64,000 bases of DNA from assembly GCF_004087835.1 (NCBI RefSeq), contig NZ_CP035119.1, forward strand, positions 1,426,001-1,490,000. The letters run 5' to 3'. Both the position numbers and the translations under genes were made by a program. The notes beneath the pieces were generated by a model. That model was not told where the DNA came from and searched no databases. It worked only from the letters and a program-made list of their open reading frames with translations. Below, in pieces: positions 28,278 through 32,960 of the stretch (position 1 is its first letter; every line of letters starts with the position of its first letter). Source of the stretch: Halorussus pelagicus. GTDB taxonomy: Archaea > Halobacteriota > Halobacteria > Halobacteriales > Haladaptataceae.

Positions 28278-28883
28278 ATGGCTTCAGAGACCATCAAGCA
28301 CGGCGTAAACACCGAAGAGTACGGCGCGTTCGTCGAGAACATGGCCGAGAACCCCGAGGACGCGATGCTCGGACTCGGCGCGAGAGGTATCGCGGAAGGC
28401 CGGGCGATGCACACGTTGGCGAAACTCGACGCGTACAGTTTCGGCGGTGAGGAAATACGGCGCGAGACCCGCGAGTACACGTTCCCGCTCGGCGCGCACA
28501 AGGAGGTAGAGGACGAGGCGGGGTTCGTGGACCCCGCCGACCGGCCGGAACCCGTGGAAGTCGCGCTGGCCGGACTCACCGGGTGCATCAACGCCACTGT
28601 CGGCATCGTGGCGATGGAGAACGACATTGACCTCGACGGCCTCGAAACCACGGTCGGACTCGACCTCGACCCGCGGGTCCTCTTCGGCGTCCACGGCGTC
28701 GAGCGGTCCGACGAGACGTACGACGACTTCACCATCGACATCGAGGTCAGCGGTCCGAATCTCACCGACGAGGACGCGGAACTGCTTCGGGAGGGCGCGC
28801 GGCGCTCGCCGGTGTTGAACCTCATGTCGCAGGCCCACGAGGCGTCGCCCGAAGTGCGCGTTCGGGACGCGCCGACGACGTAG
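28278..28883 (+). CDS. OsmC-family protein
   Basis: 201 residues. The Ohr/OsmC fold is shown by a FPLGAHKEVEDE strand region and the helix GLTGCINATVGIVAMENDIDLDGLET in pieces, with the conserved Cys in TGCIN. A second cysteine, which true peroxide-reducing OsmC proteins use as a partner, is not visible, so hydroperoxide reductase activity is uncertain. N-terminal addition of about 60 residues before the core is longer than usual. Confidence 0.85.
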   Translation: MASETIKHGVNTEEYGAFVENMAENPEDAMLGLGARGIAEGRAMHTLAKLDAYSFGGEEIRRETREYTFPLGAHKEVEDEAGFVDPADRPEPVEVALAGLTGCINATVGIVAMENDIDLDGLETTVGLDLDPRVLFGVHGVERSDETYDDFTIDIEVSGPNLTDEDAELLREGARRSPVLNLMSQAHEASPEVRVRDAPTT

Positions 28884-29336: not shown

Positions 29337-30437
29337 CTACTCTCGTTCGAGCGACAGCGAGGCCAACAGCGCCTCCAACTGGACGCGCTCGTTCGCGCCC
29401 TCGGTGATGCGGTAATCGACCTCGCCGACTCGGTCCATCAGTCTGACCGTCTCCTCGTCGCTCAGGTCGAACTCCCAGACCGAGCGGTGGAGTTGGTCGA
29501 TAACGTCGCCGCCCGCCATCCCCTTGTTCGTCAGGAGGTCGTCGAGCGTCGAGCGCGCCGTGCCGAAATTCCCCTCGATGGCGTCCGTGACCATCTCCTC
29601 GATTTCCTCGGGACGCGCCGTGCTGGTGATGGTGAACACGGCCTCTTCGTCCACGACTTCGCCCATCACGGCCGCGGCCTGAAGCGCGTTGATGGCCTTT
29701 CGCATGTCGCCGTCGGCGGCGTAGACCAGCGCTTCCACGCCCTCCTCGGTGGTCTCGATGTCCTCTTGCTCGGCGACCTTCAGAATCTGCTCGGTGACGC
29801 CCTCCTCGGAGATAGGTCCGAACCGAAACGTCGCGCACCGCGACTGAATCGGGTCGATGATTTTCGAGGAGTAGTTACACGAGAGGATGAACCGGGTGTT
29901 GTTCGAGAACTGCTCCATCGTCCGGCGCAAGGCCGACTGAGCGTCAGAAGTGAGCGAGTCGGCCTCGTCCAGAAAGATGATGCGGTAGTTGTGGCCGCCG
30001 AACGACGACCGCGCGAAGTTCTTGATGCGGTCCCGGACCACGTCGATGCCGCGCTGGTCGGAGGCGTTGAGTTCGAGGAAGTTGCTCTCCCAGTCGTCGC
30101 CGTACAGTTCCTTGGCGATGGCGACGGCGGAAGTGGTCTTCCCGACGCCTGCAGGCCCTGAGAAAAGCAAATTCGGCAGGTCGTCGCGCTCGACGTACCT
30201 GCTCAGGCGCTCGGTGATGTCCTCGTGGCCCGCCACCTCGTCCAACCGCTGAGGTCGGTACTTCTCGATCCAGATCTGGTCGCGCCCGGCGTCGGCCGCC
30301 TCGTCCGGTGCGTTCGCTCCGTCGGACTCGGCGGGGTCCTCGGTCTCGGCCGTCGCTTTCTCTTCGGCGACCGCCTCGGTCTCGGCCACCTCGTCCGATT
30401 CGGCCGCCTCGTCGGCGTCGCTCTCGGCCTCGCTCAT
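29337..30437 (-). CDS. rfcA: Replication factor C small subunit
   Basis: 366 residues from ATG 30437. The clamp loader subunit that, with RFC-L, places PCNA (encoded here at 57353) on DNA. Walker A GPAGVGKT at 94-101, Walker B FLDEADSL, the SRC arginine finger QSRCATF, and the C-terminal collar domain are intact. The first about 52 residues form a very acidic Glu/Asp/Ala tail ([14 protein letters not shown]) not part of the AAA+ fold. The start was chosen where this acidic composition begins. Confidence 0.94.
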
Positions 30438-30615: not shown

Positions 30616-31653
30616 ATGAACAAGCGATTCGCAGTTCTCCTCGCGCTACTGGTCGCCCTCGCCGCGGTGCCCGCTCCGGTCGCGGCCGACGAGACCCGGA
30701 GCGGCGGCACCGTCGTCGTCGAGGAGGGCGAGACCGTCAGCGACGACTTGAACGCGTTCGGTGGGACGGTCATCATCCGGGGTACCGTCGAGGGCGACGT
30801 GACGGCGTTCGCTGGCAACGTGTTCGTGAACGGTGAGGTGACCGGCGACCTCGAAGCCTTCGCGGGGAACGTCCGCGTCAACGGAACCGTCACCGGCGAC
30901 GCCAGCGTCGCGGGCGGGAACGTCGCGCTCGAAGAGGGCGGTCGAATCGGCGGCGAGTTGGAGGCCGCTGGCGGCAACGTCGCGGTTGACGGCGAAATAG
31001 GCCGGAGCGCGCGCGTCGGCGCGGGGTCCATCACGCTCGGGCCGACCGCAGTCGTCGGCGGCGATTTCCTCTACGACGGCGACGTAGACCGGGCAGAGGG
31101 TGCCCGAATCGACGGGGCGGTCCGCGAAGAACCCGACCTCGGTCTCGACGTGGGCGTCACCGGCCCGCTGGTTCCGAATTGGGTCGGCGCGGTGTACGGG
31201 TTCCTCGTCAACTTCGCGCTCGGCGCGGTCGCTCTGCTGGTCTTCCCGCGGTTCTCCGCGGGCGTCACCGACCGGGCGGTCTCGGACCCGTTCCGGTCGG
31301 CCGGGGTCGGACTCCTGCTGTTCGTCGAGGGTCCGATACTAATCGCGCTCCTGTTCGTCTCGCTCGTCGGGATTCCGCTCGGCCTGCTCGGGATACTGCT
31401 CTACGGCATCGTGCTGTGGGTCGGCTACGTCTACGGCGCGTTCGCGCTCGGCAGTTGGCTGGCCGGACTCGCCGACGACGCCAGCAAGTGGGTCGCGCTC
31501 GTGGTCGGTCTCGTGGTGGTCTCGCTGGTCGGGTTCGTGCCGATTCTCGGCGGTCTGGCCCAGTTCGTCGTTCTCCTGCTCGGTCTCGGCGCGCTCGCGT
31601 TCGGGGGCCGGAAGCGGTACGGCGGGCGTGGTGAGACCGAATCGACGATGTAA
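30616..31653 (+). CDS. Bactofilin-like polymer-forming membrane protein
   Basis: 345 residues. Signal peptide 1-24 ([18 protein letters not shown]), then a beta-helical stretch of short Gly/Val repeats ([31 protein letters not shown]) like bactofilins, then about four membrane segments ([21 protein letters not shown] and following). The repeat part would lie outside the cell. It may shape the envelope or carry out another surface role. It is divergent from rfcA and upstream of the SAMP2-fusion gene. Confidence 0.82.
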
Positions 31654-31749
31654 CGCGCCAGAGGTTCGGGGTTGGGTTCTCTCGCCGATCAATTCTCGCC
31701 CACTCCATAGCCCGACACGCTTACGACGCGCGCCCCGGAAAGTAACGCC

Positions 31750-32484
31750 ATGAACGTGACCGTCGAGGTCGTCGGCGAGGGGAGCCACGACTTCGAAGTC
31801 GAGGACGCGACCTACGCCGACCTGCTGGCCGAGGTGGGTCTCAGCCCCCACGAGGTGTCGGTGATGGTGGACGGCCGCCCGGTCCCGGAAGACCAACCGG
31901 TCGAGGCGGACCACGTCAAAGTGCTTCGGCTCATCAAGGGGGGAAGCGGAGACTCCGAGGCGTCGGCGCGGACGCACGACGACCTCGGCGTCTCGGAACT
32001 CGACTTCGAGTTGCCCAACGCTGGCGCGGGTCCCGACCCGCTCGCGCTCTCGGCGTTCGCGGCCGACAACGACGCGATAGTCCTTCTCTTTCAACGGGAC
32101 TACCACTGCCGGAACTGTCGCCAGCAGGTGCGGGACGTGGCCGACCGCTACGGCGAGTTCCGCGAGCGCGACGCCGCCGTGGTCTCGGTCCTGCCCGAAT
32201 CAGCGGCGCGCGCCCGGAAGTGGCAGACGAACGTCCACCTCCCGTTCCCGCTGGTCGCCGACGAGGAGAAGGCGGTCGCCGAGCAGTACGGCCAGCCCAC
32301 CCGATTCGGCAAGTTGGGCGGTCTCCACGACCTCGTGGGCCGGATGCCGGAGGTGGCGATTCTCGACGCGCGCGGCGACGACCTGCGACTCTTCGGCGTC
32401 CACCGCGGCGACAAGCCCGCCGACCGGCCCTCGGTAGACGACGTGCTGGCGATGCTCGATCGGATGCTCGCCGACGAGGAATGA
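31750..32484 (+). CDS. samp2: SAMP2 ubiquitin-like domain fused to a peroxiredoxin-like domain
   Basis: 244 residues in one frame. Residues 1-65 match the archaeal ubiquitin-like modifier SAMP2: MNVTVEVVGE start, LSPHEVSVMVDGRPVPEDQ, Lys57 in DHVKVLRLIK, and the diglycine at 64-65. Stand-alone SAMP2 stops after this GG. Here SGDSEASART continues into an AhpC/TSA-like domain (about 84-240) with the CxxC site QRDYHCRNCRQQ and LGGLHDLVGRMPEVA. No stop or good internal ATG separates them. A single-base indel in the G6 run at 31938-31943 would not create an immediate stop. It overlaps the next gene by ATGA. Confidence 0.88.
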   Translation: MNVTVEVVGEGSHDFEVEDATYADLLAEVGLSPHEVSVMVDGRPVPEDQPVEADHVKVLRLIKGGSGDSEASARTHDDLGVSELDFELPNAGAGPDPLALSAFAADNDAIVLLFQRDYHCRNCRQQVRDVADRYGEFRERDAAVVSVLPESAARARKWQTNVHLPFPLVADEEKAVAEQYGQPTRFGKLGGLHDLVGRMPEVAILDARGDDLRLFGVHRGDKPADRPSVDDVLAMLDRMLADEE

Positions 32485-32960
32485 GCGGGAGCCATGGTGT
32501 GGACTGCCCGGAGGGTATCGCGGTCCGTGAAGCTACCGCGAGCGACCGCCTCGGCGTCCGGCGCGTCCTCGACGCCGCGATGCTCGAAGTCCGCGACGAC
32601 CTCGACCAGCGAATCGACGGCGGGGACGTGCTGGTGGCCAACGAGGAGCGCGACGCCGACAGCGCCGCGGACGAAACGCCGATTCTGGGCGCGCTGGTTC
32701 TGGTCTCGGAAGGCGAAACTTCCCGAGACGCCGCGAATAGCGATGCCGCGCACATCGACGCCGTGGCGGTCCGACGCGCGCGCCGCGGGCGGGGCGTCGG
32801 GACCGCGCTGCTCCGCGCTGCGGCCCAGCGCCACGACCGACTGACCGCCGAGTTTAACCCCGGCGTCCGACCGTTCTACGAGTCGCTCGACTTCCATATT
32901 TTGCCCGTTGAGGGCGACACCGACCGACTTCGCGGGCGTTACGACGCGGACGGAGAGTGA
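32481..32960 (+). CDS. GNAT-family N-acetyltransferase
   Basis: 159 residues. ATG 32481 overlaps the stop of the SAMP2-fusion gene (ATGA), implying coupled translation. The acetyl-CoA loop is RRARRGRGVGTALLRAA, followed by FYESLDFHILPVEG at the end. The acceptor is unknown. Coupling raises the question whether the two proteins act on common targets, but this is inference. Confidence 0.85.
   Translation: MSGSHGVDCPEGIAVREATASDRLGVRRVLDAAMLEVRDDLDQRIDGGDVLVANEERDADSAADETPILGALVLVSEGETSRDAANSDAAHIDAVAVRRARRGRGVGTALLRAAAQRHDRLTAEFNPGVRPFYESLDFHILPVEGDTDRLRGRYDADGE

Follow-up and report, generated by a model that had tools for sequence, protein, structure and literature searches.

The sole SAMP2 of a Halorussus genome is fused in frame to a peroxiredoxin-like domain and is probably a precursor

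The window analyzed here, a 64,000-nucleotide stretch of a 3.49-Mb genome of the genus Halorussus (G000), contains a forward-strand open reading frame at 31750–32484 that, read directly from the sequence, spans 244 amino acids between its ATG and TGA, uninterrupted by any stop. From N to C terminus, it encodes a complete SAMP2 (residues 1–65, ending in LIKGG), a linker, and an AhpC/TSA-type redoxin. The features of this locus are as follows.

29337..30437, reverse strand: rfcA, replication factor C small subunit, from its open reading frame and sequence
30616..31653, forward strand: upstream co-directional gene for a repeat-rich membrane protein, with a counterpart in the same position in Haladaptatus and at many Halorussus loci
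31720..31749, forward strand: upstream stretch with a CTTAC(C/G) motif ~25–30 nt before the ATG, recurrent in most Halorussus species
31750..31944, forward strand: SAMP2 beta-grasp domain, codons 1–65
31924..31944, forward strand: LRLIKGG tail, codons 59–65, the expected site of E1 activation and cleavage
31945..32001, forward strand: linker, codons 66–84, predicted to be disordered, variable in length and sequence
32002..32484, forward strand: peroxiredoxin-like domain (AhpC/TSA, SelL-related), codons 85–244 plus stop
32107..32118, forward strand: CxxC, codons 120–123, located from alignments
32481..32960, forward strand: GNAT acetyltransferase gene (Pfam Acetyltransf_7, Acetyltransf_1), its ATG overlapping the TGA of the fusion (ATGA)

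To assign the two domains, we compared the translation with family models and solved structures. Residues 1–65 matched the Pfam SAMP2 model (PF21965) with an E value of 3.5e-31 and 107.8 bits (cut-off 27) and the NCBIfam SAMP2 equivalog (NF041919) with 115 bits (cut-off 70), while residues 85–183 matched Pfam AhpC-TSA with 64.2 bits (cut-off 26) and residues 85–233 matched Redoxin. With phmmer, the fusion matched the solved Haloferax volcanii SAMP2 structures 2l32/2lji and 4hrs and, weakly, peroxiredoxins. AlphaFold2, supplied with an alignment of 19 fused proteins, predicted a beta-grasp domain, a low-confidence stretch at 62–84, and a thioredoxin-type domain (mean pLDDT 75). The SAMP2 part was predicted as E-E-H-E-E (E2–7, E11–16, H22–28, E36–40, and E55–60) with a pLDDT of ~85; residues 62–84, GG included, fell below 50, which predicts disorder. 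In a fold comparison with the PDB, the predicted redoxin domain matched peroxiredoxins best. These matches, together with the stop-free frame, bear out the initial annotation, made from the DNA letters, which had described the gene as an in-frame fusion of SAMP2 and a redoxin.

We then considered whether a shorter product could be made. The redoxin had been held to lack a plausible start of its own, and we found no in-frame ATG, GTG, or TTG within the linker of the G000 fusion; since the start codons present in some relatives share no position, a separate redoxin start was rejected. Across the fused sequences compared, there is also no shared stop near the GG in the +1 or −1 frame, which argues against a short SAMP2 produced by programmed frameshifting. 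The CTTAC(C/G) motif upstream of the ATG is consistent with a putative leaderless promoter. As described initially, rfcA lies 1.3 kb away with one intervening gene, whose product looks polymer-forming or bactofilin-like by eye. In many haloarchaeal families, rfcA adjoins samp2, often diverging upstream of it. The view that this is the samp2 locus itself stands, and the fusion holds the genome's sole SAMP2 over the family cut-off. Beyond rfcA, 3 kb upstream of the fusion, lies a gene for an OsmC-family protein (28278–28883), which belongs to a different peroxide-defence family.

Within the genus, each of the 18 Halorussus species genomes contained exactly one SAMP2 over the cut-off, always at the same locus. 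A search for a second, stand-alone SAMP2, proposed in the initial annotation, found none over the family cut-off in these 18 genomes and none in G000 at E ≤ 10. The fused ORF is complete in 16 of the 18, G000 included, and 17 are open across the junction, counting G011 (a 62% complete genome), where the junction is fused and a frameshift occurs later, inside the redoxin. A sequencing error in the window was rejected, as the junction is uninterrupted in 16 other Halorussus genomes. In G017 (L012, near 1540), SAMP2 reads LIKGGAV-stop and the redoxin lies in another frame, its GTG overlapping the stop. Since a single base in the G run after AAG (AAGGGGGGAGC in G017, AAGGGGGGAAGC in G000) separates the split from the fused form, this is either a real secondary split or an assembly or homopolymer error.

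As encoded, the GG at residues 64–65 is internal and would be free only after putative processing, so that the object is a SAMP2 domain in a precursor and not a canonical SAMP2. Because the sole SAMP2 is made as the N-terminal part of a longer chain, cleavage is probably needed before the modifier can be used. We consider it likely that a desampylase cuts this precursor into active SAMP2 and a peroxiredoxin-like partner; the cleavage, its site, the protease, and a functional link between the two products are what we infer.

The initial annotation had proposed looking for the same fusion elsewhere. We searched first 243 and later 392 genomes belonging to this order and found it in frame in three further genera and five genomes: g38 (G095, G152, and G211), g82 (G265), and g89 (G324). 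Linkers measure 10 aa in g38 and 10–56 aa among relatives as a whole, and in all three g38 genomes, the fused copy is the only SAMP2 over the cut-off. Two near-identical MAG contigs (L049 and L111) were not counted; SAMP2 there runs in frame into the redoxin, but its tail is scrambled beyond residue 41, which looks more like the effect of a frameshift than a genuine fusion. In many other haloarchaea, samp2 and the redoxin gene are not fused but lie side by side; wherever this was seen, samp2 came first, followed by the redoxin gene and usually a GNAT gene. Such separate genes may abut (LIKGG-TAG-ATG in G358 and G281; L113 and L115) or overlap (ATGA in G250; L125). In Haladaptatus (L069), which has the same family code, f1, as Halorussus, the redoxin is absent at the locus, and samp2 directly overlaps the GNAT gene. 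Among 91 distinct redoxin relatives, 21 were fused, 22 were adjacent to samp2 (G017 included), and 48 were non-adjacent within the flanks read.

Two observations concern the other members of this neighbourhood. Many haloarchaeal families have a GNAT gene after samp2 or after the redoxin gene, frequently overlapping it by ATGA; a functional tie between SAMP2 and acetylation is possible. In G176 (L082, ~1744–2900), the redoxin is fused in frame to GNAT via a long acidic linker, with samp2 upstream and separate; the same gene trio has thus undergone different fusions in different lineages. Separately, in Natronococcus pandeyae (L058, 4001–6348), a 2.4-kb stretch contains at least two redoxin relatives, one of which seems to be split over broken reading frames.

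To estimate how often the fusion arose, we examined the redoxin tree. Halorussus stands beside separate genes of genus g8 (support 99/98), g38 groups with g89 elsewhere, and G265 occupies a third place. The fused label undergoes four changes on this tree, at least three of which are forced by starred branches and one of which is the G017 split. A single origin of all fusions was rejected by the AU test (p = 0.014); when G265 was excluded, it was not rejected (p = 0.11), and a smaller tree gave p = 0.08. These results support the notion that the fusion arose more than once, whereas three origins represent only the best tree and our best estimate. Neither the separate samp2–redoxin–GNAT order nor the repeated origin of the fusion, nor the loss of the first Cys of CxxC in some members, had been foreseen by the initial annotation.

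A neutral collapse of the operon is a possible explanation, although we would not call it probable. According to this account, the stop between two co-transcribed neighbours was lost, nothing but equal dosage was gained, and the fusion is processed or tolerated. Separate genes that abut or overlap, as in L113 and L125, are indeed a single step away from fusion, the linker is under almost no constraint, and the G176 redoxin is fused to GNAT instead. However, the fusion has been kept in 17 of the 18 Halorussus genomes and gained more than once, and the adjacency of samp2 and redoxin itself recurs over several families.

Returning to the reading of the fusion as a SAMP2 precursor, we examined selection along the protein. 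The LRLIKGG tail is identical in 21 fused proteins (19 aligned plus L109 and L112), those of g38, g82, and g89 included, and in Halorussus, its seven codons show synonymous changes only (pN 0, pS 0.29). Across the genus, dN/dS was 0.12 for SAMP2, 0.37 for the redoxin, and 0.67 for the linker, which thus appears nearly unconstrained. Since we know of no role for an internal GG, the constancy of the tail is best explained by its use after cleavage. The chain-forming lysine noted in the initial annotation is present, as K57, but it is not the K of KGG; it corresponds to the chain lysine of H. volcanii SAMP2, K58. The lysine gives way to R in G008, to T in g38 and g89, and to Q in G265, so chain formation through this lysine is not a feature shared by the fusions.

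We next asked which processing enzymes are encoded alongside the fusion. A UbaA-type E1 is present in the G000, G010, G017, and g38 genomes; that of G000 (G000:C1:1919507-1920229; ThiF E 4.3e-81) scored 438 bits against the UbaA model on a partial piece, just below the cut-off of 450. An NcsA-type enzyme is encoded in G000, G017, G095, and G152, and JAMM proteins are encoded in all 18 Halorussus genomes and in the three g38 genomes. JAMM genes occur widely among haloarchaea, however, so finding them here is not a specific sign. Both JAMM proteins of G000 carry the HSHP...SxxD motif: the first, which scored 173.6 bits against the NCBIfam desampylase model (cut-off 130), keeps HSHP and SATD, and the second keeps HSHP and SKED. 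With a GG at the junction, an accessible linker, and a protease encoded in the genome, the fusion has the features expected of a JAMM-processed Ubl precursor. The second JAMM gene (L104, G000:C1:2615209; 1441–2445) is followed by a cytidylyltransferase-like gene, a pairing noted by Makarova and Koonin 2010 (PMC2948915).

Studies of H. volcanii provide a framework for this reading. There, HvJAMM1 cuts a linear SAMP1–MoaE fusion exactly after the final Gly, both in vitro and in vivo, with function restored and the GG required (PMC4443979); SAMP2 and UbaA are required for tRNA thiouridine formation (PMC3980101), and JAMM2 has been proposed to recycle SAMP2 (PMC4895103). In our model, translation yields SAMP2 tethered by a flexible linker to the redoxin, which many other haloarchaea encode next to samp2 as a gene of its own, and a JAMM/MPN+ desampylase (the orthologue of HvJAMM1 or else the second JAMM) probably cleaves behind Gly65. 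This cut would free the C terminus of SAMP2 for adenylation by UbaA, and free SAMP2 would then act in thiolation of the tRNA wobble uridine with NcsA and in protein modification, while the redoxin would be released as a separate 1:1 partner, or a minor uncut pool might persist. Three points count against the precursor: the JAMM genes are not a specific sign, the cited cleavage of a linear fusion concerns SAMP1, not SAMP2, and H. volcanii survives without samp2 (PMC12625751), so that a cell might cope with losing free SAMP2.

The initial annotation had offered release by a JAMM protease as one of two alternatives, and this one is favoured by the unchanged LRLIKGG, by the retention of the UbaA, NcsA, and desampylase genes, and by the cleavage of SAMP1–MoaE by HvJAMM1. 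The other alternative, that conjugation has been lost and the domain works in cis, appears improbable. The SAMP2 of such an uncut chimera would no longer conjugate but would serve the redoxin as a permanent tag or docking domain, a form of constitutive sampylation, and its GG would be free to drift. Instead, the tail is constant in 21 fusions of more than one origin, though we know of no cis role for an internal GG, and the E1, NcsA, and desampylase genes have been kept in the genomes searched. What speaks for the chimera is that SAMP/Urm1-type modification of peroxiredoxins is documented (Ahp1, PMC7016264; Saccharolobus, PMC12625751), that the linker is long and predicted to be flexible, and that H. 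volcanii can dispense with samp2 (PMC12625751).

The likely fate of SAMP2 as a processed product leaves the contribution of its partner to be considered. In the alignments, C123 pairs with the peroxidatic Cys of 5epf; of the 19 fused proteins aligned, 18 have it. The CxxC reported initially does occur in G000 but is not conserved: C120 is replaced by Ser in seven of the Halorussus sequences examined, the non-fused G017 included, and L004, another Halorussus sequence, reads CRKS, with Ser at the peroxidatic position. R198 is invariant among the 19 aligned fused proteins and, judged by motif, would occupy the place of the peroxiredoxin active-site Arg. Instead of the peroxidatic motif PxxxTxxC, however, the domain reads RDYHCRNC, with Arg at the Pro position and Cys or Ser at the Thr position, so peroxidase activity is not to be assumed. 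All curated NCBIfam peroxiredoxin and SelL models scored below their own cut-offs for the redoxin of the fusion.

In yeast, conjugation of Urm1 to the peroxiredoxin Ahp1 requires the peroxidatic Cys (PMC7016264), archaeal Urm1 has been attached to yeast Ahp1 (PMC12645042), and Urm1-type modification of peroxiredoxins occurs in Saccharolobus (PMC12625751). The fusion is thus an encoded counterpart of a known Urm1–peroxiredoxin conjugate. The tie of protein modification or tRNA thiolation to redox state that was raised initially is plausible, with joint action of SAMP2 and the redoxin as a candidate link only. One could speculate further, though we regard this as rather unlikely, that an Urm1-type modifier and its peroxiredoxin-like partner form one unit that has been repeatedly hard-wired, a genome-encoded counterpart of Urm1–Ahp1 in which the partner, through its redox state, governs release of SAMP2 by the desampylase, and tRNA thiolation and protein modification follow oxidant stress. 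Very unlikely is the redox-gated form of the precursor, in which the Cys state of the redoxin sets the rate of SAMP2 release and thiolation and sampylation track oxidant: repeated fusion, the conserved samp2–redoxin neighbourhood, and the Cys requirement of Urm1–Ahp1 conjugation (PMC7016264) would suit it, but the CxxC is not constant, Ser replaces the peroxidatic Cys in L004, and linker length varies widely.

The closest known relative of the SAMP2 domain is H. volcanii SAMP2 (2l32, 4hrs), presumably HVO_0202, which belongs to the same family, has the identical tail VKVLRLIKGG, and is encoded by a gene that, across haloarchaea, lies beside rfcA. Whereas that protein stops at GG, the Halorussus fusion continues for 179 more residues. 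To our knowledge, archaeal SAMPs have been regarded as ubiquitin relatives that can do without processing, given their terminal GG. If the only SAMP2 of a whole genus is a precursor, this would represent natural, obligatory maturation in the style of ubiquitin in archaea and a native job for a desampylase. Ubiquitin–ribosomal protein precursors likewise have an N-terminal Ubl domain, a junction GG, and release by a protease; in Halorussus, by comparison, the partner is a redox protein, the fusion is the sole gene for its Ubl, and release is what we infer. A Ubl precursor fusion is therefore of a known kind, while within the literature searched the SAMP2–redoxin pair is undescribed: we found no published report of this fusion, or of Halorussus with SAMP2, in the open-licence literature, and no mention of the fusion in the accessible part of PMC2948915.

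Among archaeal systems, SAMP1/MoaD–MoaE fusions also join a Ubl sulfur carrier by its GG to a downstream enzyme, and an artificial one is cut by HvJAMM1 in H. volcanii (PMC4443979), but both the Ubl family and the partner, MoaE, differ from those of SAMP2–redoxin; natural archaeal Ubl–MoaE fusions are reported as restricted to Crenarchaeota (PMC4443979). According to PMC2948915, Ubl genes adjoin OsmC-type peroxiredoxin genes in Thermococcales, and Thaumarchaea have a Ubl–Cgi121 fusion, so that these cases share with ours a Ubl link to peroxide defence or a fusion to another protein, though the OsmC fold differs from the AhpC/TSA fold of the Halorussus fusion. In yeast, finally, Ahp1 is the best-known target of Urm1, of which SAMPs are described as homologues (PMC7016264, PMC12625751, PMC12645042). 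The Urm1–Ahp1 bond is a post-translational isopeptide bond to Lys, whereas that of Halorussus is encoded head to tail; given a peroxiredoxin-like partner in both, the repeated fusion and gene adjacency suggest that this family of modifiers is tied to peroxide defence.
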